Assembly: GCF_001042675.1 (NCBI RefSeq)
Contig: NZ_AP012333.1
Span: 1,798,001 to 1,862,000 of the forward strand
Source of the DNA: Parascardovia denticolens DSM 10105 = JCM 12538
GTDB lineage: Bacteria; Actinomycetota; Actinomycetes; Actinomycetales; Bifidobacteriaceae
Direction: 5' to 3'
Length of the DNA stretch: 64,000 nucleotides
In this document: one piece after another, positions 52,604 to 64,000 of the stretch
Position numbering within the stretch: position 1 is the first letter of the stretch
Layout: every line of letters starts with the position of its first letter
Made by a program: the position numbers and the translations under genes
The notes under the pieces: generated by a model
What the model was told of the DNA's origin: nothing
What the model saw: only the letters and a program-made list of their open reading frames with translations
Database searches by the model: none

Positions 52604-52840
52604 TCATCGGTTAGTTCCTTTCCTTTTCCCCACTTTCTTCAACAACCACTTGTCCCGCCTGATTTCCACGACGCTCAGGGTGAGGGCGGCGGCCGCCAAG
52701 GCGGCGATCAAGAGGGAATCCACCAAAGGCATATCGACGACGATCCGGAAAAGGACGGAAAGCAAGGCATACACGGCCAAGGCCAAAATCACCTTCTCCC
52801 ACTTCCCGGATAAGAATTCTCTATGATTTTTATCCTTCAA
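52604..52840 (-). CDS. Small two-helix membrane protein with TTG start
   Basis: Protein of 78 residues: basic/hydrophilic N-terminus, two hydrophobic helices (about 17-37, ILALAVYALLSVLFRIVV, and 39-58, DSLLIAALAAAALTLSV), and a Lys/Arg-rich tail. The initiator is TTG with an excellent AAGGAGG upstream, which is the main argument for a real gene. Converges with the GT8 gene. Function unknown. Confidence 0.65.
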   Translation of the reverse strand: MKDKNHREFLSGKWEKVILALAVYALLSVLFRIVVDMPLVDSLLIAALAAAALTLSVVEIRRDKWLLKKVGKRKGTNR

Positions 52841-53333
52841 GAGTCCTCCTTATGCCTGCGACTCAAGCTCTGGCTATCATTCATTCCTTTGCGGGATGGG
52901 ATGGTTATTCTTCAATTTCTCGAAACAAGCCACAGCCAGTTGAGCAATATCATACATTTTACTGCATGACTAGTACACATCATAGTCCGCAAGGATGAAA
53001 AGGAGGCGAAAAAACGCAAATCTTCCAACGAATACCGCTAGAAGCAAAACCGTCAGACAATCAAATACGGTCCGGGAGACGGGGAGGGAGAAAAGAAAAG
53101 CCCGGTCGCTAGACCGGGCTATCAGAGAGAAGGAGAGAAGAAAGGTTTCAATTATTAAGAGTGGGTATCTCTTAACCAACATCAGGTTGGTAGTTATTAT
53201 TAAAGGGCCCAATCCTTAAGGCTTTCCCTGTGTGTTCCTGAGAAATCGCTGGGAATTGTGCCCTTTTTGTAAAAAACAGCCCTAAGAACTCCCCTTTCGA
53301 ATCATTCGCGGATCATTCGCAGGGCTTTTGCGG
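52841..53333. other. Gene-poor stretch downstream of metG
   Basis: About 490 bases, AT-richer than average. An open frame at 52995-53219 encodes a very basic low-complexity peptide that lacks a ribosome site and crosses the terminator hairpin, so I do not call it. A small inverted repeat CCAAC/GTTGG lies near 53175-53190. The clear element is the terminator at 53099-53120. Confidence 0.5.
53099..53120 (-). terminator. Intrinsic terminator reading on the minus strand
   Basis: AGCCCGGTC, a GCTA loop, then GACCGGGCT: a nine-base perfect stem. On the minus strand it is followed by TTTTCTTTTC, the U-rich tail expected for termination of metG transcription. Confidence 0.75.
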
Positions 53334-55205
53334 CTATTCATCCTTCCGGGTGAGCTTTTCCTGCTCCGATTTCAACCGGGCTTCCTCTTTGGCTTGACGG
53401 GCGGATAGCTCCTTTTCGAACCGATCCAATTCCTCCTCCACAGCTTCGGGAGGGATCTTCTGGAAGAGGGGGCTGGGCTTGGCGATGGGAGTACCTGGCC
53501 GGAGTTCCTCCCGTTCCCAGGCATGGACGGTCTCCCCCAGTCTATAGTTTCCGGTGATGATCGGGTACGAGAAATCAGGATCATCCAAATCGGTCACTTC
53601 CTCCACATGCGGAAGCGGGGAGAAAGTCCCGGTGCCGCCCAAGGTCTCATACACCTTCTGGGCAGAATGCGGCAGGAAAGGAGCCAACATGGTGTTGGCA
53701 TCCATCACGGCCTGGGCGGATGTATACAAGATCGCAGCCAGACGGGCGGGATCGTCCTTCACCTTCCACGGTTCGGTGGCCGAGATGTACTTGTTGATTT
53801 CCTGGACGATGCGCATGGCCTCTGTCAGGGCCGCCTTTTGCCGATGATCCTCAATCAGGCCGCCCACGGAGGCGAACCCCTCTTCGGTCATCTTCAGCAA
53901 GGCCTTATCCTCCTCCTGGAAATCGGAAGGATCGACGGCGGGGATCTGACCGAAATTCTTATGCAAAAGCACGGCCACGCGGTTGACCAGATTGCCCCAC
54001 GAGGAAACCAGCTCATCGTTGTTATGGCGGACGAATTCAGCCCAAGTGAAATCGGAGTCTGACGTCTCCGGGCCGGCGATGGAGATGTAATACCTGACGG
54101 CATCCACCTGATAGCGGGCGAGGATGTCTTTGACGTAAATCACGATGCCACGGGAAGAGCTGAATTTCTTGCCCTCCATGGACAGGAATTCAGAGGCTAC
54201 CACCTGGGTGGGCATGTTCAGCTCGCCGAACTCGCCCGGCTCGCCTCCTTTGCTGCCTTGACCGTTATAGCCCAGGATCTCCGAAGGCCAAATCTGCGAA
54301 TGGAAGGTGATGTTGTCCTTCCCCATGAAATAGTAAGCCGGGGATTGGGGGTCATTCCACCACTGACGCCACAAATCCGGGTCCCCTTGGCGTCGGGCCC
54401 ACTCGATGGAGGCGGACAGATAGCCAATCACGGCGTCGAACCAGACGTAAAGCCGTTTATTCGGGTTATCGATCCAGCCATCCACTGGGATGGGGATGCC
54501 CCAATTGATGTCCCTAGTGATGGCACGAGGCTCCACCTCGTTGAACAGTCCCAGAGAGAAGTTGATGACGTTGGTCCTCCATCCTTGGCGGGTCTTGAGC
54601 CAAGCGTAATTCGCCTCGGCCAAGGCGGGGAGATCCAGGAAGTAATGTTCCGTTTCCTGGAAGACCGGGGTCTCACCGTTGATTTTGGAGCGGGGGTTGA
54701 TGAGATCGATGGGGTCCAACTCGTTGCCGCAATTGTCGCATTGATCGCCGCGAGCCCCATCCGCACCGCAAATCGGACATGTCCCTTCAATATAGCGGTC
54801 AGGCAGGGTACGCCCGGTGGAGGGGGAGATGGCCACCATCTGCGTGCCCTTGTAGATGTAACCGTTCTTCAGGCACTGTTTGAACATCTCCTGGACCACG
54901 TTTTCGTGGTTCTTGGTGGTGGTCCGGGTGAAAAGGTCGTAGCTCAAACCCAAGTTGCACAAATCCTGGGCGATGACGCGGTTATACCGATCCGCCAGTT
55001 CCTGGGCGCTCACCCCTTCGGCGTCGGCCTGGACCAGAATGGGGGTCCCGTGCTCATCCGTCCCCGAAACCATGAGGACCTCATTCCCCTTCATACGTTC
55101 GTATCGGGCATAAACATCGGAGGGGACGCCGAAACCGGCCACGTGGCCGATATGGCGAGGGCCGTTGGCATAAGGCCAGGCAACAGCTACTAATACATGA
55201 GTCAT
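53334..55205 (-). CDS. metG: Methionyl-tRNA synthetase
   Basis: Class I aminoacyl-tRNA synthetase of 623 residues charging methionine. HIGH region in [18 protein letters not shown], a zinc-knuckle pair of CxxC motifs ([18 protein letters not shown]) and the KMSKS-like KKFSSSRG are present. The start ATG at 55205 begins [14 protein letters not shown], close to the catalytic fold as in family members; the frame is open 39 codons further upstream but that part does not look coding. C-terminal basic/acidic helix tail. Confidence 0.97.
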
Positions 55206-55477
55206 AAGGCACATTATCCCTAGTAATCCTGACAAAGCAAGCGTTTTTCGATGAGGTGAGTTATTCACTTTTCCTGCTCGAATGGTTGGGGACAAGGATG
55301 GTGGATTCATGTGGATCGTCACCCGCCGGCTGGGTATAAGTCAGGACTTATCCACCCTGTCCACAATTTCCTGACCTCCTCTTGCCTTCCCGGCCTGGCT
55401 GGATACACTGTGATTTACCCCTTGCGAAGACGGGGCGCCGTCGTCCCGGATGCGCAAGGAAGAAGGAAGGACATCCC

Positions 55478-56335
55478 ATGAGAACCGAAATCGTACCCAC
55501 CATGTACGGGTTGAGAGGCAGCGTAGCCAGCGGCCGGACGCCCATATTCCGCACCTGCGGCATCAGCGGGCAAGCGGGCATCTACCGGTTGGTCCACGCC
55601 GGGGTCATCACCCGGCTCGACGAGCAATCTTTCTTCCTGACCACGCAAGCGTCCGACGTCCCCGGCCGGGCGCGGATCATCCGCGGAATCCTTCCTTACA
55701 ACACTGTCGCCAGCGTCTGGCTGGCCGCATGGATCTGGGTTGGAGGGGATTTCCCCTTCGTCATCGATTTGATTTCCTCGTCCCATTTCCGCTCCCCCAT
55801 CCTCGGCAGATCGGTCAGGGTATCCAACCGTTACCTGTCGGATGAAACCATCGCCCATATCGGGGTGCAGAAATTGACCACTCCGGTGCGTACCGCCTGT
55901 GAAATCGCCTGTTTAGGCGAAAAGGAAAGACGAGAGGGGAAAGCCTATTCCGTCATCGGGAAACTGGCCCAGGACTTCGACTTCACCCATAAGGATTGCT
56001 TGCGTTTTCTGGACGCCAATCCTCGCTGGCCCGGCCATGACGACGCCACGGTCGCCTTCCACAACACCAACCTGCAGGCCCATATGCGCCTTCGCCCGGC
56101 GAAGGAACAGACCAGGGAGACCACCTTGCTTTTGGAAGGTCCACAAGGAAGGGACCAGGTGGAGGATTTGACTGGTCTATATGACGGACAGGATGCGGGC
56201 GGCCATCATATCGGGCAGGAGGCCAAGGGGTCGGCCAAGCGGGAGACCAAACGAGATTCAAGGAGGGATGTGGGGCAGGAGGCCGAATGGCAACTCCAAC
56301 AGGGAACCGAGCGCAGGCATGCTCTCCGATTATGA
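55478..56335 (+). CDS. AbiEi antitoxin-like winged-helix protein
   Basis: Protein of 285 residues. The first 170 residues fit the pattern of actinobacterial AbiEi-antitoxin-like proteins: an N-terminal winged-helix segment (ISGQAGIYRLVHAGVITRLD), then LPYNTVASVWLAAWIWVGG and LTTPVRTACEIACLGEKERR. The last 75 residues are low-complexity, rich in Gly, Gln, Lys, Arg. AAGGAAGGA precedes the ATG. No AbiEii-type nucleotidyltransferase toxin follows, so it is probably an orphan relative, whose partner is lost or not needed. Confidence 0.65.
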   Translation: MRTEIVPTMYGLRGSVASGRTPIFRTCGISGQAGIYRLVHAGVITRLDEQSFFLTTQASDVPGRARIIRGILPYNTVASVWLAAWIWVGGDFPFVIDLISSSHFRSPILGRSVRVSNRYLSDETIAHIGVQKLTTPVRTACEIACLGEKERREGKAYSVIGKLAQDFDFTHKDCLRFLDANPRWPGHDDATVAFHNTNLQAHMRLRPAKEQTRETTLLLEGPQGRDQVEDLTGLYDGQDAGGHHIGQEAKGSAKRETKRDSRRDVGQEAEWQLQQGTERRHALRL

Positions 56336-56588
56336 CGGGTTCCAGTTAGATCCCCTTCCCTCCCTTCCTCAGCCGCCCCCGCCACCGCTGAAACTGACCG
56401 CTTATCTGGCAGCCAGCAGCGACCGGGAAGAGGTGCTGACCTATATCGCCGAGAACCGGCCGGATCTGCGTTGTTGGATCATAGCCAACCCACACGCTTC
56501 GACCCGGTTGTTGGAGCGCATCTCTCAATTAGGAGGACCTCATGTCAAGGATTGCTTTGATCTTCTTTTTGATTTTCTGGGCCTTTAG
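56319..56588 (+). CDS. Small variant leucine-rich-repeat protein
   Basis: Protein of 89 residues. After a Pro-rich stretch (PSLPQPPPPP) it has the helical variant-LRR pattern: LTAYLAASSDREEVLTYIA, NRPDLRCWIIANPHASTRLL. Such repeats are found in actinobacterial proteins of unknown function, often many copies; here only about one and a half. It starts inside the end of the AbiEi-like gene (ATG 56319), without a strong ribosome site, suggesting coupling. Stop is 17 bases before the convergent rsmI end. Confidence 0.6.
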   Translation: MLSDYDGFQLDPLPSLPQPPPPPLKLTAYLAASSDREEVLTYIAENRPDLRCWIIANPHASTRLLERISQLGGPHVKDCFDLLFDFLGL

Positions 56589-56604
56589 CCGCCTGCGACG
56601 GGAA

Positions 56605-57489
56605 TCATTCCTTCCCCTGGAGGGCGAGCACGGCGCTGTAGACCTCTTTGCGATTCGGCAAAGAACCATCAGGCAAAGGATGCTCGGAGACCACTTGGGC
56701 TATGGCCTCTTTCACTTTCATCCCTCCCTCTTGCGAGCGCTCAAAGGAAAGCCGGGCCAAATCGGCGAGGGACAGGACGGTGGCCGAAGCGCTCGCGGCT
56801 TCCGCGATGCTGGCTCCTGCGATGACCAAGACGATCTCCCCTCGTGGCGGGTCGGTTTCAACGCCTCGTCTGATACCCGCGATCGGGCCCCGCCTGACCT
56901 CCTCATAATCCTTCGTCAATTCACGGGCCAAAGCCATGGGCCGATCATGACCAAAGACCGCTTCCAAATCCTGGATGGACTCTCCTATGCGGTGAGGGGT
57001 CTCGTAAAACACGATGGTGCGCATCTCAGCTTTCAAAGACCGCAAGGCCTGCATACGTTCACTGTGTTTGCGGGGAAGGAAACCCTCATAGCAGAAGCGG
57101 TCCGTCGGCAGGCCGGACAAGACCAAGGCGTCAAGGACCGCTGAAGGGCCAGGAGCGCAGGTGACCGGAAGGCCACGGTCAATCGCCTGCCGGACAATGG
57201 CCAATCCAGGGTCGTTGATGGTGGGCATTCCGGCGTCGGACACGACCAGCACGGTCTCCCCCTGCTCCACCTGGTCCAAAAGCCCCGAAGCCTTAACCCG
57301 CTCATTGTGGTCATGATAAGCGACGACTCTGCCCGAGACCTTCACCCCCATACGATTGGCCAAATCGTAGAGACGACGGGTATCTTCGGCGGCAACGACG
57401 TCTGCCATCTCCAGCAAGGCGGCCAGACGGGCGGACCCGTCCCCGATGTTCCCTATAGGGGTCGCAGCCAAGACGACCTTGCCTTTCAT
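56605..57489 (-). CDS. rsmI: 16S rRNA (cytidine-1402-2'-O)-methyltransferase
   Basis: SAM-dependent methyltransferase of 294 residues that modifies C1402 in the decoding centre of 16S rRNA. Family motifs: VVLAATPIGNIGD, AEDTRR, VVSDAGMPTINDPG, PGPSAVLDALVLSGLP and FYEGFLPRK-like CYEGFLPRKHSER. Start placed at ATG 57489 by comparison of length; the frame stays open to an ATG at 57579, adding 30 residues. Adjacent and divergent from the protein mannosyltransferase gene, as in mycobacteria. Confidence 0.95.
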   Translation of the reverse strand: MKGKVVLAATPIGNIGDGSARLAALLEMADVVAAEDTRRLYDLANRMGVKVSGRVVAYHDHNERVKASGLLDQVEQGETVLVVSDAGMPTINDPGLAIVRQAIDRGLPVTCAPGPSAVLDALVLSGLPTDRFCYEGFLPRKHSERMQALRSLKAEMRTIVFYETPHRIGESIQDLEAVFGHDRPMALARELTKDYEEVRRGPIAGIRRGVETDPPRGEIVLVIAGASIAEAASASATVLSLADLARLSFERSQEGGMKVKEAIAQVVSEHPLPDGSLPNRKEVYSAVLALQGKE

Positions 57490-57786
57490 AGGCTCGTACC
57501 ATTTCTCTAAATTGTCAGGGTTGGCCCAGGAAGTGGTAGTGGAGGCTGGCCCCAGCGGTTCGACGAACTCATCAGTCATACTTGTAAACCTACCATGCGG
57601 CGAAAACGCAGGGCGAAGGCCGTACTCTGCGAAGATTGGTGAAAGATGGAAGCCAAGACCGGACCTGTCTTGGTTTGGCTGCCTAAGATACGAAAAGAGC
57701 GATAGTACCGATATGCATCAAGACGACATACCCTCAGAACTCGTCGAGACGACGAGGGATCCGCTAAGGAAGATATGGGAGGCGCG

Positions 57787-59601
57787 ATGGCGGCGAAAAC
57801 GCAGATGGACAAGAAGGACGATGAAACCAGAGAAGCCATAAAGACGCCGAAAGACGGGTATATGCCTATTCTTCACGGCAAGTCCGCAGGGGATGGACGC
57901 AGAATCAACCGGCTGCCTAGTCTGGGCGGGAGAGGTTCAGCGCCTACGCAGTATCCCCGGCCTTCCCAGTCTTCGCAACCACCTTCGCGGTCTTCCCAAC
58001 TTTCCCACTCTTCCCAACCCGCTACGTCCGCCAAGGCGGCCCAAGCGTCCCTACCTGCCGTGCGACCAATCGGAAGACAGGAGACCCGGCTTAGCTGGCT
58101 CATCACCGCCTTGGTCACCATCTTCGGCGGCATGCTCAGATTCATTCGACTGGACCAGCCCCACGGCATCGTCTTCGACGAGACCTACTACGTCAAGGAC
58201 GCCTGGACCATGCTTCTGACCGGAGAGGCGCGGGACTGGCCCAAGAAGATCGGGACGACCTCAGTCAACGACCTTTTCGCCTTCGGCAGCACCAACCACT
58301 GGAAATCCACGGCTGAATACGTCGTGCACCCTCCTTTCGGCAAATGGCTGATCGCATTGGGCCTCAAATTCTTCGGAGGGGCCTATAACATCGCCGCTTG
58401 GCGCATCTCCACCGCCATCGCTGGAACCATCGCAATCCTCCTCCTGTGCAGGGTGGCTTTCCGCCTCTTCCGGAGTATTCCCCTCATGGCCATCGCCGGC
58501 CTGCTCATGAGCGTGGACGGTCTGGGAATAGTCATGAGCAGGACAGGAATCCTGGATAACTTCCTCATGGTCCTGGTCCTGGCCGCCTTCCTTTGCCTGC
58601 TTCGCCACCGGGATTGGGCCATTCATCGGCTGAGCACCGCCAGGGATTCCGCGGCAGGCAAGGCCGCCCTGGGGGCTGGGCCCCGTCTTTTCTTCTCCTG
58701 GTGGCGACTCGCGGCCGCGATCTTGCTTGGTCTCAGCTGCTCGGTGAAATGGTCCGGCATTTACTTCTTCGCCGCCTTCGCCGTCATCTCCGTCCTTTGG
58801 GATGCCTGCAACAGGCATGAATTCGGTTTCCGCGGATGGTTCGCGAGCGCCATCCTGCGCGATGGCCTACCTGCGGCCTTATACATGATCCCCACCGTTT
58901 TCCTGACTTATCTGGCAACTTGGGCCGGCTGGTTCATCCACCCTGATTCCTACATGCATCAGTGGGCATCGGCCCATCCAAGCCAAGGGATCGCATGGCT
59001 TCCGGAAGGCCTGCGCTCTTTCGTCGAATATCATCGGCAGATGTGGATCTTCCATACCGGTTTGGATACCCCGCATACATACATGGCCAACGCCTGGCTT
59101 TGGCCTTTGCAGATCCGTCCGACCAGCTTCTGGTGGACCGACCATATAGATGGGTCCCCCGCGCTCTGCTCTCTCTCGCACGGACCCGCCTCTAATTGCG
59201 TGACCGATGTGGTCGCCTTGGGCAATCCCCTCATCTGGTGGCTGGGAACCCTATGCGCCATCCTGGTGGTCGATATCGCCGTCATCGCCCGTCAAGGCGA
59301 TTGGAAGGCAGTGGCGGTCCTGGCCGGATGGCTGGGCGGATGGCTGCCCTGGATCCAATACACGCATCGCACCACCTTCAACTTCTATGCCATCGTCATC
59401 CTGCCTTGGCTGATCCTTTCCATCATCTACCTGCTTGACTGGTTGCGGCAGACGATCCGGGTCCGGGCTTACAGAATCACGGTGGGAATCCTCTTGACCA
59501 CCATCATCGCCATTTCCATCTTCTTCTACCCCATCTGGACCGCCATCCCTGTCACCTATGACTTCTGGCGGGCCCATATGTGGTTCACCACATGGATCTA
59601 G
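57787..59601 (+). CDS. pmt: Dolichyl/polyprenyl-phosphate-mannose protein mannosyltransferase (GT39)
   Basis: Membrane enzyme of 604 residues that transfers mannose from polyprenyl-phosphate-mannose to Ser/Thr of proteins crossing the membrane with Sec. The first 100 residues are Ser/Pro/Gln-rich (SQSSQPPSRSSQLSHSSQ). About ten helices follow; the catalytic DE pair lies in IVFDETYYVKD, and HPPFGKWLIALG and the later LSCSVKWSGIYFF are typical. Start is the ATG preceded by GGGAGG; another ATG 12 bases upstream has AAGGAAG but too close. Signals an active O-mannosylation pathway. Confidence 0.94.
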   Translation: MAAKTQMDKKDDETREAIKTPKDGYMPILHGKSAGDGRRINRLPSLGGRGSAPTQYPRPSQSSQPPSRSSQLSHSSQPATSAKAAQASLPAVRPIGRQETRLSWLITALVTIFGGMLRFIRLDQPHGIVFDETYYVKDAWTMLLTGEARDWPKKIGTTSVNDLFAFGSTNHWKSTAEYVVHPPFGKWLIALGLKFFGGAYNIAAWRISTAIAGTIAILLLCRVAFRLFRSIPLMAIAGLLMSVDGLGIVMSRTGILDNFLMVLVLAAFLCLLRHRDWAIHRLSTARDSAAGKAALGAGPRLFFSWWRLAAAILLGLSCSVKWSGIYFFAAFAVISVLWDACNRHEFGFRGWFASAILRDGLPAALYMIPTVFLTYLATWAGWFIHPDSYMHQWASAHPSQGIAWLPEGLRSFVEYHRQMWIFHTGLDTPHTYMANAWLWPLQIRPTSFWWTDHIDGSPALCSLSHGPASNCVTDVVALGNPLIWWLGTLCAILVVDIAVIARQGDWKAVAVLAGWLGGWLPWIQYTHRTTFNFYAIVILPWLILSIIYLLDWLRQTIRVRAYRITVGILLTTIIAISIFFYPIWTAIPVTYDFWRAHMWFTTWI

Positions 59602-59748
59602 CCCCCGCTTGGCCTCTTCTTCCCCCACCCCGTGATTTGTCAGGATTTTGTCGAGCTTCCCGCCTCCTGGCTCCTCGAGAGGCCACAGGAAAAGTCCTCA
59701 TGTTAGACTTAGCTCAGCGGTTTTGCCTACAGATAAGCAAGGAGCAGC

Positions 59749-60483
59749 ATGCAGGTCATCCACTTTTTCGTCAATCTTCTTAAAGATCCCCGCACCGCTA
59801 TCGCCGGCTGGATCACGACTTTGGGGCTCGGCCCGACCTATGCGATCATCTTCCTGATCATCTTCATCGAGACAGGCGTGGTCTTCTTCCCTTTCCTGCC
59901 GGGCGATTCCCTGCTTTTCGCCGCTGGATACTTCGCCGCCGACCCCAAATATCCGATCACCATCGGCGCCTTGCTGCCTATCGTTTGGCTCGCTCCGATT
60001 CTTGGCGATGAATGCAACTACTTCATCGGCCGTTTCTTCGGCCGCCGAATCGTGGAATCCGGCAAGGTCAAGTCCATGACCCCTGAGCGCATCGCCAAAA
60101 CCGAAGGCATGATCGACCGCTGGGGGCCTCTGGCCGTTTTCCTCGGCCGCTTCTTCCCCTTCATCCGCACCTTCATGCCTTTCTTCGCGGGCATCACCGG
60201 GATGAAATGGCGCCGGTTCGCTCCGTTCAGCATCTTGGGCGGTCTGACTTGGAGCTCCATCTTCACCCTTCTCGGCTACTTCTTCGGCGGCATCCCCACC
60301 GTTCAGCGGCATTTCGAGCTAGTGATCGTGGGGATTCTGCTCATCTCCCTGATTCCCACCTTCGTAGGACTGATCAAGGCCAAGACGAACTCCTCCAAGA
60401 GAAAGAAGGCCGCTCAAGCGGTCGCCAATGACTCCGAGGCTGCTGAAGAAGCCGAAGCCACTGCTGCCTCCGATATCGCCTAA
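59749..60483 (+). CDS. DedA family membrane protein
   Basis: Protein of 244 residues with four to six helices. Characteristic elements are FIETGVVFFPFLPGDSLLF, the segment GDECNYFIGRFFGRR, and GRFFPFIRTFMPFFAGITGM. DedA proteins are required for proton-motive-force homeostasis and some recycle undecaprenyl phosphate. AAGGAG precedes the ATG. The last 35 residues are a Lys/Ala/Glu-rich tail. A tRNA-Ala gene follows 138 bases downstream. Confidence 0.95.
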   Translation: MQVIHFFVNLLKDPRTAIAGWITTLGLGPTYAIIFLIIFIETGVVFFPFLPGDSLLFAAGYFAADPKYPITIGALLPIVWLAPILGDECNYFIGRFFGRRIVESGKVKSMTPERIAKTEGMIDRWGPLAVFLGRFFPFIRTFMPFFAGITGMKWRRFAPFSILGGLTWSSIFTLLGYFFGGIPTVQRHFELVIVGILLISLIPTFVGLIKAKTNSSKRKKAAQAVANDSEAAEEAEATAASDIA

Positions 60484-60621
60484 GGTTTCATGTAAGGTCT
60501 TATGTAATGCCTCGCAGGAGGCCTCGCCTAAGGAACACAGGCCGAAGCGGAAGCGGGAAACCCTCAGTGGCGGCAAGGACTGGGGGCTGGTGTACCATAG
60601 GTGACGTTGGCTTTCAAGCTT

Positions 60622-60694
60622 GGGGCTGTAGCGCAGTTGGTAGCGCGCTTCGTTCGCATCGAAGAGGTCGGGAGTTCGACTCTCCTCAGCTCCA
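60622..60694 (+). tRNA. tRNA-Ala (anticodon CGC)
   Basis: A complete 73-base cloverleaf. The 7-bp acceptor stem GGGGCTG pairs with CAGCTCC (one G-U), D stem GCGC/GCGC, anticodon stem CTTCG/CGAAG with loop TTCGCAT giving anticodon CGC at 60655-60657, and T arm with TTCGACT loop. Discriminator base is A; the CCA end is not encoded. It reads the GCG codon. Confidence 0.96.
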
Positions 60695-60909
60695 CTCCGT
60701 GATGCGGGGTAACCGATGCCCCTGCCCCATCGGTCTTCTTATCGATTTATCGATATTCTTCACTTGTCCAGGCGGCTTTTACGCGGCTGACATGCGGATC
60801 GGTCATCGTCATTGCTTTGCCCGCACATGGTGCTACAACGATTACTGTCATTCCGATCGCTTATGGCTTCGGACGCAAAATTCAAATAAGGTTTATTCAA
60901 AGGCAGGAA

Positions 60910-61641
60910 ATGTTCGAGAGTCTTTCCGACGAAACGATGCTCATAGCGGTGGACATCATCATAATCATGACGATTTCAGCTCTCCTCGGATATACAGCCT
61001 ACCGCATCCTCCGCAACCCTTTTCGCTACCCATATTTCGTTTATACTTTCGACGTATCCTATAAAAGGAATGTTGACATCACAGACTACGTTGATGGATT
61101 CCTGTGCGATGAACGCAATTGGGACATGCTCATCGCCCATCAGCGAAACATCATCGATTGGAAGGAGACGACCGAGGATTACCTGGCATCCTGCGTTCTG
61201 AAGAAGCACCGGACAAAACAGTACCGGGAAATCCTGGATGATCAGCGCGCTTTCCAGTTCGAGACGGTACGCGGGCAGACGCGTTACCGGCAACGGAATT
61301 ATATAAGGTCGTCATATCGGGTCCCTGTTTCGGATAAAAGGCTGGTGGCCAATTGGCAATGGCTCCTCCAACGTCATTACGCGTTATCACAAATCGGATA
61401 TGAGACGACACTCAAAAATTACAGCAGGAAGAACCAGCGTAAGTTGATGACTGCGGCTTTACGCCGACGAATTATGGAACGCGACAACTATACGTGCAGA
61501 CATTGTGGGAAGTATATGCCAGATGAGGTCGGGCTCCACATCGATCACATCATCCCCATCGCGAAAGGCGGCAGAACCATTCCATCGAATCTGCAGGTGC
61601 TCTGCTCAAAATGCAACGGGCGCAAAGGATCCCGAGGCTAG
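60910..61641 (+). CDS. Membrane-anchored HNH endonuclease
   Basis: Protein of 243 residues. A single N-terminal helix (about 13-33, VDIIIIMTISALLGYTAYRI) is followed by a helical domain of about 130 residues unlike anything I recognise, and then a C-terminal HNH domain (about 190-243) with CxxC (TCRHCGKYM), the His of HIDHIIPIAKGG and the terminal CSKCNGRKG zinc-binding pair. The second helix domain has Tyr/Arg-rich segments (YRQRNYIRSSYR). The gene is AT-richer than its neighbours and sits just after tRNA-Ala, a common insertion point, though no integrase is visible. ATG chosen because AAAGG lies upstream. Confidence 0.85.
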   Translation: MFESLSDETMLIAVDIIIIMTISALLGYTAYRILRNPFRYPYFVYTFDVSYKRNVDITDYVDGFLCDERNWDMLIAHQRNIIDWKETTEDYLASCVLKKHRTKQYREILDDQRAFQFETVRGQTRYRQRNYIRSSYRVPVSDKRLVANWQWLLQRHYALSQIGYETTLKNYSRKNQRKLMTAALRRRIMERDNYTCRHCGKYMPDEVGLHIDHIIPIAKGGRTIPSNLQVLCSKCNGRKGSRG

Positions 61642-61677
61642 CCACCCACCCTGGCGGCAGGATCTCGGTGCCGGATT

Positions 61678-62886
61678 TCAGAGCCTGATCCCTCTTTGCC
61701 GGCAATAGGAGACCAACGACTGCGGGTAGACCAAAGACGCCGAACTCCTCAGGTCCTGTATATCGCGTACCCCCAAAAGGGCCATCAGAAGGCGGATATG
61801 TTCTTTCCACTCGTCAACCAGCGCAACGGTTCCCTCCACGCCTTCCTCCTGAATGGCTTTGAGGAAGAATCCGGACAAGCCCACGCAGTCGGCTCCTGAT
61901 GCCAGATATTTCACCACGTCAAGCGGGTTCCGCACTCCCCCTGAGGCGATGATGTGCAGATCGCCGAAACGCTCGCCGACGCTGCGGGCTTCCAGCAAGG
62001 ATCGCAAAGTGCTGATCCCCCAGGAACGAAGATAGGAAAAATCGAGGGAGTCTGCATGAGCTGAACCGTGTAGTTGAAGTTCATTTCGAGCCTCGCCTTG
62101 GCAGCCGAGGCGGCGCAACGCTTCCTTCCGCCGCTCATTTTCGATGCGGATAAAATTCGTTCCCCCCTTACCGGCGAGATCAACCCAGCGAACTCCCAGG
62201 GAATAAAGCCGTTCCACCGTTTCCCGGCTCAAGCCGAACCCCACCTCTTTGACGATGACCGGAACGCCTTTCTTGTCCATGGCGTCCACGATGCGGCCGA
62301 TATGGTCCGTCCAGCCGCGGAAATCACGGGATCCTTCCGGCATCACTATTTCCTGGGCGGCATTGAGATGCAGCTGCAAAGCCTGAGCGTCCACCGTCTC
62401 CACCACCAGCTGAGCCGCCTCAACCGAGTGCTCCGCCCCAAGGTTGGCGATGAAATTCACGTTCGGGTTATCCTTGCGCAAGGTCCGATAAAAACCCTGC
62501 ACTTCCGGTTTCTTGACCAGAATGCTCATGGACCCCAGAGCCATGGCCACACCCGTCCTGGAAGCGACGGCGGCCAGCTGGGAATTCAAAGCGTTGGTCC
62601 CAACAGTCCCTCCTGTCATCGCGTTGATGAAGAAAGGGGAAGACTGGGCGATGCCAGCCACAGTGGAGCTGATGTCAACCTGGTCCACGGCGATTTCCGG
62701 CAAAGCCTGATGAATGAACTCGCATTGATCCAGCTCGTCCCAGACCGCCAGTTGATAAGGCTCGACCTCCTGGGAGCGAATACGGGCGGCCAGGCGAACG
62801 TGGTCGTCTTTCCGGCTGGAGATAGTGGCCCGGTCGTCCACCAGCTCCTGATGAGAACGACCTGGGTTTATCGTAGGCTTGGTCAT
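61678..62886 (-). CDS. fni: Type 2 isopentenyl-diphosphate delta-isomerase
   Basis: FMN- and NADPH-dependent enzyme of about 402 residues converting IPP to DMAPP for polyprenol synthesis. Motifs: SSRKDDHVRLA near the N-terminus, FINAMTGGTVGTN, GSMSILVKKPE, ANLGAEHSV, QLHLNAAQEIVMPEGSRDF and WVDLAGKGGTNFIRIE, plus ASGGVRNPLDVVKYLASGA for phosphate/FMN binding. The protein is about 50 residues longer than common type 2 enzymes, at both ends. Start at ATG 62886. It relates to the pmt and cell-wall genes in this window by supplying polyprenyl carriers. Confidence 0.95.
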   Translation of the reverse strand: MTKPTINPGRSHQELVDDRATISSRKDDHVRLAARIRSQEVEPYQLAVWDELDQCEFIHQALPEIAVDQVDISSTVAGIAQSSPFFINAMTGGTVGTNALNSQLAAVASRTGVAMALGSMSILVKKPEVQGFYRTLRKDNPNVNFIANLGAEHSVEAAQLVVETVDAQALQLHLNAAQEIVMPEGSRDFRGWTDHIGRIVDAMDKKGVPVIVKEVGFGLSRETVERLYSLGVRWVDLAGKGGTNFIRIENERRKEALRRLGCQGEARNELQLHGSAHADSLDFSYLRSWGISTLRSLLEARSVGERFGDLHIIASGGVRNPLDVVKYLASGADCVGLSGFFLKAIQEEGVEGTVALVDEWKEHIRLLMALLGVRDIQDLRSSASLVYPQSLVSYCRQRGIRL

Positions 62887-62936
62887 GCTTGTCCCTGCTT
62901 TCCTTGGAAAACAGCCATGGGCGGTCCCGCCCATGC

Positions 62937-63209
62937 TTATTCTTCTGGTTTGATTTTTTTGATTTCCTCGTGGTATTTGTCTGTGATGGCTGTGCTGTAT
63001 TTGCCTTCCATGGCTTTGTTGAGGCGGGAGACGATGCTGGTCAGATGGGTGGAGGCGTCGGTTTCCAAAGGGGTGAGCGTGGTCGTGGCCTTTCTTTTCA
63101 GGGCGGCCAGATCAGTGCCAAGAATAATGGTGACGTTTTTGCGGGCGAGGGCGGTGGCAATCTTGTCTTTGGGAAGTCCCTCGGATTGGATTTCCTTTGT
63201 CATTACCAT
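62937..63209 (-). CDS. 90-residue protein, function unknown
   Basis: Short, mostly helical, charged protein without membrane helix; I do not recognise it. The N-terminal half is basic (LARKNVTIILGTDLAALKRK), and the C-terminal part is amphipathic helix (LTSIVSRLNKAMEGKYSTAI, EEIKKIKPEE). AAGGAGG lies seven bases before the ATG, a strong site. It is the third member of a coupled group with the mini-ORF at 63203-63265 and the hydrolase-like gene. It could be an accessory, chaperone or immunity protein; not established. Confidence 0.72.
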   Translation of the reverse strand: MVMTKEIQSEGLPKDKIATALARKNVTIILGTDLAALKRKATTTLTPLETDASTHLTSIVSRLNKAMEGKYSTAITDKYHEEIKKIKPEE

Positions 63210-63265
63210 GCGTGTTCCTCCTTGCTTATGATGGCCTCTCCCGGGCGGAAGCGATTGTTGTTCAT
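63203..63265 (-). CDS. 20-codon coupling ORF between hydrolase-like gene and 90-aa gene
   Basis: A reading frame too short for normal calls: its ATG overlaps the TGA of the upstream gene (ATGA), it has AGGAAGA at a good distance, and it reads MNNNRFRPGEAIISKEEHAW. Its TAA lies within the start of the 90-residue gene (ATGGTAATG). The AAGGAGG that serves the next gene is part of it. It is best explained as a translational bridge; the peptide itself may have no role. Confidence 0.4.
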   Translation of the reverse strand: MNNNRFRPGEAIISKEEHAW

Positions 63266-64000
63266 AGGTTGTCTTCCTGGTGGTCGAGTTGGGTGTCCCA
63301 TTGGCGGAACCGGGTGGCCAGGTGGGCGTCCTTGTCCAGGAGGGTCTTCAGGGCGGCGCTGGTTGTGCGTGTCAGCTCGTCCAGGTTCTCATGGGCTTTC
63401 TTCACCCGATCCCGGTAGGCGTCCATGCTGGCGGTGGCCTGCTGGATGAACCGTTGCTTGGAGTGGCCTTCCTGGGTGGCGATGTCGACCAGGTCGTCGC
63501 GGGAAAGATCGCCGACGGAGGTGAACTGGTAGACGTAGATGTCGGTGATGTCCTTCTCCCACACGTCCCCGGCGGTGGCGGCCTGATGCTTCCTGGCGGC
63601 GGCGACCAGCGCGTCGGTGCGCCCCATCTCCTGGCTGACGGCGGTCAGCAGGCTCATCGCCTGCTGGTAGTCCAGGTAGATCTTCTGCCCGGCGGACAAC
63701 GCCCCGCCGTCCTTCTCCCACTGGGAGCGCAGGTTCTTGAGGGCTGTGTCCGTGCGTAGCTGCGTGGCGTCGATGGTCTGTTCGGTGAGGGCCAGGCTGC
63801 CGTCGGAAGCCCACTGGTAGCCGCCCCAGGAGTGTTGCTTGCCGATATGGTCCATCGGGTTGGAGCCTCCCGCGTCCGTGGATTCCACGTGCCGCACCTG
63901 GCCGACGGCCTGCTTGTCGTCCCGATAGCCGATGGGCACGAGGTCCTGGGAATCCACGTAGTTCTTCACCCGGCTGCCGTAGGAGCGGGCGCGCTTCTTC
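63262..64000 (-). CDS. C-terminal part of a hydrolase-like protein with long helical tail (cut by the window edge)
   Basis: The frame is open to the window end, so the true start lies to the right. The first visible residues (RARSYGSRVKNYVDSQDLVP) and the segment GKQHSWGGYQWASDGS look like the last strand and catalytic-His region of an alpha/beta-hydrolase of the DUF2974/DUF6792 lipase-like kind. The remaining 180 residues form a mostly helical, charged region (for example ALKNLRSQWEKDGGALSAGQ), reminiscent of the long helices in secreted effector proteins. Family assignment is tentative. Followed by the coupling ORF and the 90-residue protein. Confidence 0.7.
   Translation of the reverse strand, partial: KKRARSYGSRVKNYVDSQDLVPIGYRDDKQAVGQVRHVESTDAGGSNPMDHIGKQHSWGGYQWASDGSLALTEQTIDATQLRTDTALKNLRSQWEKDGGALSAGQKIYLDYQQAMSLLTAVSQEMGRTDALVAAARKHQAATAGDVWEKDITDIYVYQFTSVGDLSRDDLVDIATQEGHSKQRFIQQATASMDAYRDRVKKAHENLDELTRTTSAALKTLLDKDAHLATRFRQWDTQLDHQEDNL

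Follow-up and report, generated by a model that had tools for sequence, protein, structure and literature searches.

A predicted membrane-anchored HNH nuclease encoded at a variable tRNA-Ala site in Parascardovia denticolens

Near the end of the 1.89-Mb single-contig genome of Parascardovia denticolens (family Bifidobacteriaceae), a gene of lower GC content follows a tRNA-Ala gene, and the question is what its product is and what it might do for the bacterium. The window analysed here is the whole stretch of 64,000 nucleotides around it (G000:C1:1798001-1862000). An earlier note on this DNA had described the product as a membrane-anchored HNH nuclease of a kind typical of some defence systems. 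Here, we found that this observation is real and that its main point stands, whereas the coordinates and the type of one domain are corrected. The features of the locus are as follows.

60622..60695, + strand: tRNA-Ala (anticodon CGC), found by ARAGORN; chromosomal landmark of the variable site
60910..61641, + strand: gene of the predicted membrane-anchored HNH nuclease, 243 aa (ORF list, Pfam and family alignment A2)
60928..61011, + strand: predicted N-terminal transmembrane helix, residues 7-34 (AlphaFold model and hydrophobic 19-mers)
61015..61413, + strand: middle domain, residues 36-168, modelled as mixed alpha/beta with a long beta-hairpin; no Pfam match and no significant PDB fold match
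61435..61638, + strand: HNH nuclease domain, approximately residues 176-243 (Pfam and fold matches)

The range 60622-61641 had previously been given for the gene. Its end was right, but 60622 is the start of the tRNA, and the open reading frame covers 60910-61641. Similarly, the gene does lie downstream of tRNA-Ala(CGC), the sole tRNA gene that ARAGORN found in the window, but not directly after it, as 214 nt separate the tRNA end from the ATG. Possible alternative starts are ATG 60937 (residue 10), where the Aeriscardovia relatives begin in the alignment, and TTG 60817; every candidate start retains the membrane helix. A scan for promoters and terminators found none, with about one expected by chance. 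The lower GC content noticed earlier was reproduced, with values of 0.48-0.49 in 500-base windows across the gene and of 0.55-0.62 in most such windows from 53250 to 62750; a second dip, to 0.45, lies at 52750-53249. A convergent gene, named IDI-2/fni-type by eye from its translation, is found 36 nt away (61678-62934). Beside it, the stretch 62937-63999 holds two minus-strand ORFs, one of which runs off the window, and the GC content is 0.64-0.66 over 63250-63999.

A scan of 84,980 species genomes yielded 56 loci related to this gene. The family alignment (A2) comprises 53 members including the window protein; three truncated sequences (L084, L090 and L093) and one that is an HNH fragment only (L095) were left out, and one open at a contig edge (L073) and one with a degenerate HNH end (L091) were kept. 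The 52 other full or nearly full-length relatives are 35-63% identical to the window protein and, as judged by record titles and tree labels, belong mostly to Bacillota, many of them from gut and rumen samples. Outside this phylum we found three Coriobacteriia (L041, L042 and L057), five Aeriscardovia MAGs and one Methanomicrobium MAG, the copy in the last being possibly misbinned. Thirteen loci on the minus strand were read, 12 of which gave a readable HNH ORF. The layout of hydrophobic N-terminus, middle domain and HNH domain is common to all 53 aligned members. Values of dN/dS were 0.02-0.11 in six of eight pairs of relatives (dS being saturated in some) and 0.21 and 0.35 in the remaining two, the latter on very little synonymous change; the window gene is in none of these pairs. 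Because 52 other sequences share its invariant residues and dN/dS among relatives is low, which shows constraint on the protein sequence, the window gene is, as judged from sequence comparison, more than a chance ORF.

The C-terminal part of the protein matches Pfam HNH (4e-14, above the cut-off) and HNH_5 (8e-15) at residues 196-242, and the HNH domain read there by eye is thus confirmed. By analogy, D212-H213, N227 and K239 would be the catalytic residues, all of which are intact, and Cys 196, 199, 232 and 235 would be zinc ligands. All eight residues are present in 52 of the 53 members; the exception, L091, has lost four of them. An AlphaFold model of the window protein was built with alignment A2 (mean pLDDT 94.8). 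Its HNH part aligned with the Gme HNH nicking endonuclease 4h9d (Z 9.0 over 81 aligned residues, rmsd 4.1), and further fold matches were EcoKMcrA, Cap5 and the HNH domain of IscB. By sequence and modelled fold, the window protein is a nuclease of the HNH superfamily (His-Me finger) with predicted DNA cleavage.

The membrane anchor is likewise a prediction that both sequence and model back. The best 19-mer has a Kyte-Doolittle value of 2.31 at residue 9, and residues 7-34 form a helix in the model. All 53 aligned members, the window protein included, have a hydrophobic 19-mer of at least 2.1 close to the N-terminus; that of L057 begins at residue 75 because its ORF is over-extended. Lys and Arg are richer on the C-terminal side of the helix in 44 of the 53 members, with seven ties and two reversed cases. 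This bias, like the four conserved cysteines, favours a cytoplasmic nuclease: one helix would lie in the cytoplasmic membrane, with the HNH domain on its cytoplasmic side.

Between these two parts, the earlier note had seen an unknown helical domain of about 130 residues. Some 130 residues without annotation are indeed present, but the domain is not simply helical. In the whole-protein model, the helix at 7-34 is followed by a strand (43-48), three helices (57-66, 68-94 and 98-108), two strands pairing as a hairpin (115-129 and 132-147), a helix (149-161) and then the HNH domain. This gives a beta-alpha-alpha-alpha-beta-beta-alpha order with a hairpin of 15 and 16 residues, and the middle domain modelled alone showed the same elements (pLDDT 96.2). 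Beyond the HNH domain proper, six residues are invariant across A2 (W84, Y136, L159, I162, Q176 and R177), and the conserved residues of the middle domain include W84, R125, Y126 and Y136. The domain carries a net positive charge in 47 of the 53 members.

In database searches, this region had no Pfam match and no significant PDB fold match. At E up to 10, Pfam lists six families in all for the window protein, none of them with a match before residue 177, and PADLOC profile matches begin at residue 160 or beyond. Among the best 25 of 48 PHROGs matches, most fall within the HNH part and the residues immediately preceding it, but a few begin at residues 100-146; a PHROGs search with the middle domain itself gave no consistent match. 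An NCBIfam IscB match starting at residue 99 scored 43 bits vs a cut-off of 175. Foldseek found no match of the middle domain in the PDB at E <= 0.001 (best 0.39), the best VIA-align hit was not meaningful (PhiC31 integrase, Z 3.5 over 68 residues), and a profile search against PDB sequences reached only chance level (best E 0.03). A BFVD search, for which the whole protein was the query, was filled by HNH-type matches. The absence of a PDB match does not prove a new fold.

How did this gene come to be in P. denticolens? Its distribution is patchy: it is found in one of the three genomes of the genus, in six of 189 genomes of the Bifidobacteriaceae and in three of 396 genomes of a phylum sample (own genome counted). 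Among the 189 Bifidobacteriaceae genomes, only the six with the whole protein were found to have the middle domain. Three of 140 genomes had a match in the family of G341, one of them in the HNH part only; Olsenella uli An820 has what reads as the same protein as G341. In the maximum-likelihood tree, the window protein groups with Olsenella and Collinsella and with one Oscillospiraceae and one Hominifimenecus sequence (support 95/81, then 98/90). This tree includes both L041 and L119, whose proteins read the same, and 19 of its 52 inner branches are unresolved. A single clade of the window protein and the five Aeriscardovia sequences was rejected (lnL 70.5 lower, p-AU 0.00028); the clade is a taxonomic group, but was named after the tree had been inspected. 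As the window protein groups away from the Aeriscardovia members of its own family, horizontal transfer is most likely, and the gene was probably gained from unrelated bacteria.

In Aeriscardovia itself, five of seven genomes have the gene, and in the four with flanks compared it occupies one syntenic place. A GNAT-like gene stands just before the HNH gene in those four loci, and one to four genes after it follows a protein gene whose copy in L053 matches HSDR_N. The synteny and the presence in five of seven genomes imply that the gene can be retained once acquired. At this conserved chromosomal place (L053:10699-11874, plus neighbours in L065, L071 and L083), the HNH gene thus has the GNAT-like gene on one side and the HSDR_N-type protein gene on the other.

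The site beside the tRNA, the variability of which the earlier note had suggested checking, was found to be variable. A DedA-type gene precedes tRNA-Ala(CGC) in all three genomes of the genus, and in the window the tRNA is followed by the HNH gene and fni. The two other genomes carry different genes there, so that the HNH gene is not universally conserved in the genus; moreover, no relative resembled a housekeeping protein. In G001, a sister species, a stretch of nearly 8 kb, read by eye as a sugar-uptake cluster, lies between the tRNA and fni; by eye, its genes (L115:1854-9372) encode an ABC transporter for sugar, a protein of the alpha-glucosidase type and a regulator of the LacI type. In a second sister species (G002), a lone gene of 279 aa (L116:9648-10487) stands right after the tRNA, and fni is about 53 kb off. 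Of 50,697 phage records, a single one matches its protein (43% identity, with 90% of the protein covered), and this record is an unverified and unannotated fecal phage sequence. By eye, one stretch of the 279-aa protein resembles a PD-(D/E)XK nuclease. Solitary mobile genes may use the tRNA-Ala(CGC) site as a landing spot. The tRNA 3' end is not repeated within the window as an att repeat or integration scar would be, and no integrase-like gene was noticed by eye between the DedA-type gene and fni.

We then considered the neighbours of the relatives. When 838 neighbour proteins of 55 loci were clustered, no conserved operon partner recurred. The top cluster (12 loci) was rejected as a partner, consisting of assorted ABC ATPases, and several further clusters with steady position derive from the Aeriscardovia loci. 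Clustering with defence genes, which had been suggested as a check, does not hold as a rule. Using PADLOC (E <= 1e-10) on 93 and 92 near proteins (51 loci) and 128 farther ones, in batches without four of the five Aeriscardovia loci and without duplicate viral loci, we found no family listed more than four times per batch, and near proteins matched much as far ones did; in two of the three batches this refers to the first 25 of 85 and the first 25 of 67 families listed. For example, mad3 was counted 2 and 4 times near and twice far, mad2 once near and 3 times far, and a type I RM set was far. Many relatives adjoin housekeeping or unrelated genes. Individual loci do fit a defence or mobile context, as they have an AbiEii, HSDR_N-protein, serine resolvase or relaxase gene nearby or, in one case, lie in a prophage.

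Several of these cases are informative on their own. The Lactimicrobium copy (L045) lies inside a prophage, between a phage helicase and a large terminase that match 2,323 and 2,610 phage records, respectively, and it is identical in an IMG/VR contig of 81.8 kb (L096). A Lachnospiraceae copy (L034) is the first gene of a prophage record, with an excisionase gene 2.5 kb on. In the same record, 2.7 kb on from the family gene (L034:3467-5722), a gene resembles by eye one for a PrrC/RloC-type AAA protein. In L082, a serine resolvase gene overlaps the called start of the family gene by 4 nt. In G534, two TM-HNH genes stand in tandem (L121:1067-1450, 127 aa, and 1483-2211, the family gene; G534:C1 approximately 1040000-1041150) and face an AbiEii gene (Pfam 6e-29). 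A relaxase-like protein is encoded about 3 kb from there, and its N-terminal ~270 residues are ~26% identical to plasmid proteins; it matched 63 plasmid records, the best 8 of which are annotated as relaxase or mobilization proteins.

The closest known parallel is SNIPE, a protein with a TM, DUF4041 and GIY-YIG arrangement, which is membrane-bound and is reported to cut phage DNA during injection and to bind the tape measure protein (Saxton et al. 2026, PMC13190303). According to that paper, conservation is lower in DUF4041 than in the nuclease, and the N-terminal region varies greatly; its text does not contain the word HNH (PMC13190303). This word is likewise absent from a 2026 review of anti-phage nucleases, which places Zorya, Kiwa and SNIPE under membrane localization (PMC12904381), and from a 2022 screen in which a DUF4041 protein anchored in the membrane was described (PMC9519451). 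In literature titles and abstract openings, with most subscription papers and bioRxiv outside the scope, we found no membrane-anchored HNH nuclease of this kind. Like SNIPE, the window family is encoded by a single gene, is scattered over many bacterial clades and joins a predicted membrane helix at the N-terminus to its own middle domain and a C-terminal nuclease. Unlike SNIPE, its nuclease is HNH, its ~130-residue middle domain has invariant positions, and its hosts are mostly Bacillota. With no GIY-YIG and no DUF4041 in the complete Pfam list (six families, E up to 10), membership in SNIPE was rejected, and that the window protein works like SNIPE could be proposed only by inference.

Other HNH systems share less. 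Stand-alone HNH endonucleases (Pfam HNH/HNH_5, 4h9d and EcoKMcrA) have the same C-terminal fold and residues, but their best structural matches lie in the HNH part and none extends to the helix or the middle domain of the window protein. Zorya ZorE and Septu PtuB share the HNH domain, with profile matches limited to that part. Zorya type II ZorE was rejected by score (13.7 bits vs an equivalog cut-off of 600). Septu was also rejected, as the flanking genes were read by eye as DedA-type and IDI-2/fni-type and not as PtuA; nor are they ZorAB by eye. No R-M methyltransferase was seen by eye beside the window gene or listed in the near-neighbour tallies, one batch of which covers the first 25 of 85 families.

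What, then, could the protein do? We give about even chances to a single-gene, horizontally transferred, membrane-tethered nuclease of defence or exclusion that would attack DNA at entry. One N-terminal helix would hold the protein in the cytoplasmic membrane with the remainder in the cytoplasm, and the middle domain would recognise something specific to DNA entry, either the entry apparatus or naked entering DNA. The HNH domain, whose fold and residues are seen, would then nick or cut the entering DNA beside the membrane. The tether would keep the nuclease off most of the host chromosome, so that self would be spared, as reported for the differently built SNIPE. A prophage-borne copy could serve the prophage against competing phages. 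That the protein would act on entering DNA, as proposed in the earlier note, is an inference from the architecture and from the SNIPE precedent (PMC13190303). In favour of this defence reading we count the architecture in 53 of 53 members, the confident model, the catalytic residues, the Lys/Arg bias in 44 of 53 members, the four conserved cysteines, the net positive middle domain in 47 of 53, the patchy spread, the placement in the tree, the variable site, the mobile contexts and the low dN/dS in six of eight pairs of relatives. Against it stand the lack of a systematic association with defence genes, the Aeriscardovia synteny, which is steadier than for many defence genes, the missing att repeat, the nine of 53 members without Lys/Arg bias and the degenerate L091. 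In addition, a prophage-borne gene could serve the phage's own life cycle.

Extended to the whole family, the last point would make this a captured phage gene that works for the phage, in superinfection exclusion or in degradation or processing of DNA at the membrane, with the chromosomal copies domesticated or left over. The copy well inside a prophage between helicase and large terminase, the one that comes first in a prophage record, and the lone gene with a phage-record relative (90% coverage) at the same tRNA site in G002 argue for it. However, viral contigs yielded only two of the 56 genome loci (L045 and L080), of the 102 phage records with a match only one spans 80% of the window protein, and many relatives lie among housekeeping or unrelated genes, so we regard it as unlikely. 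A suicide effector, in which a membrane sensor of phage or envelope damage would unleash the HNH domain on the cell's own DNA (abortive infection), would fit the AbiEii neighbour in G534 and the match of the HNH fold to the CBASS effector Cap5. But neither a partner sensor gene nor an antitoxin-like gene recurs beside the family gene, and such a role seems quite improbable. EndA combines an N-terminal anchor with a His-Me-finger nuclease, and a membrane-held enzyme of this competence type would cut outside DNA for food or transformation. The general layout agrees, and many record titles of relatives point to gut or rumen, which are rich in free DNA. On the other hand, the Lys/Arg bias (44/53) would put the nuclease in the cytoplasm, which the four conserved cysteines also suit, the presence is patchy and no neighbour of any kind recurs. 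The DNA/RNA non-specific endonuclease family is absent from the Pfam matches of the window protein, and we hold DNA uptake or scavenging to be very unlikely. Finally, a role as an HNH packaging protein or as a homing endonuclease, selfish and free-standing, would fit the match of the HNH domain to many phage HNH families. Neither is known to require a membrane helix, but the helix is kept in all 53 members, and the middle domain is confined to the six whole-protein genomes of 189 searched; we see hardly any chance for either.

Within the reading of a tethered defence nuclease, a broader proposal is more tentative, and we put it somewhat below an even chance: the family may form a new, independent single-gene immunity class in anaerobic gut-type bacteria, in which a tethered HNH nuclease is joined to an unannotated domain that would sense DNA entry, convergent with SNIPE and one branch of a modular set. 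If the protein works as proposed, entry-point protection by a tethered nuclease would not be peculiar to SNIPE and would have been reached more than once, with Bifidobacteriaceae, Coriobacteriia and Clostridia as the hosts of this solution. The protein would also be a compact test case for how a nuclease can distinguish entering DNA from the chromosome purely by location, and would be a barrier to weigh when these bacteria are transformed or treated with phages. To us, the most interesting parts are the middle domain, unannotated but confidently modelled, and a tethered nuclease that apparently arose by convergence.

The modular set is suggested by other HNH proteins of membrane type. Two proteins of genus g5 in the same family (L010 and L011) and one from G709, in the family of G341 (L123), have hydrophobic N-termini with values of 1.76, 2.08 and 2.62, respectively, the first being below the cut-off of 1.9. 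Their C-terminal HNH module is related to that of the window protein, at 51% over 70 columns in L011 and 33% over 96 in L123. By profile comparison, the middle region of L011 is unrelated to that of the window family, and the L123 alignment is confined to the HNH part and what immediately precedes it. The 127-aa protein of the G534 tandem, in which a hydrophobic stretch and an HNH domain were seen by eye, is too short for the middle domain. These cases suggest that one HNH module may have been combined with several membrane or sensor parts.
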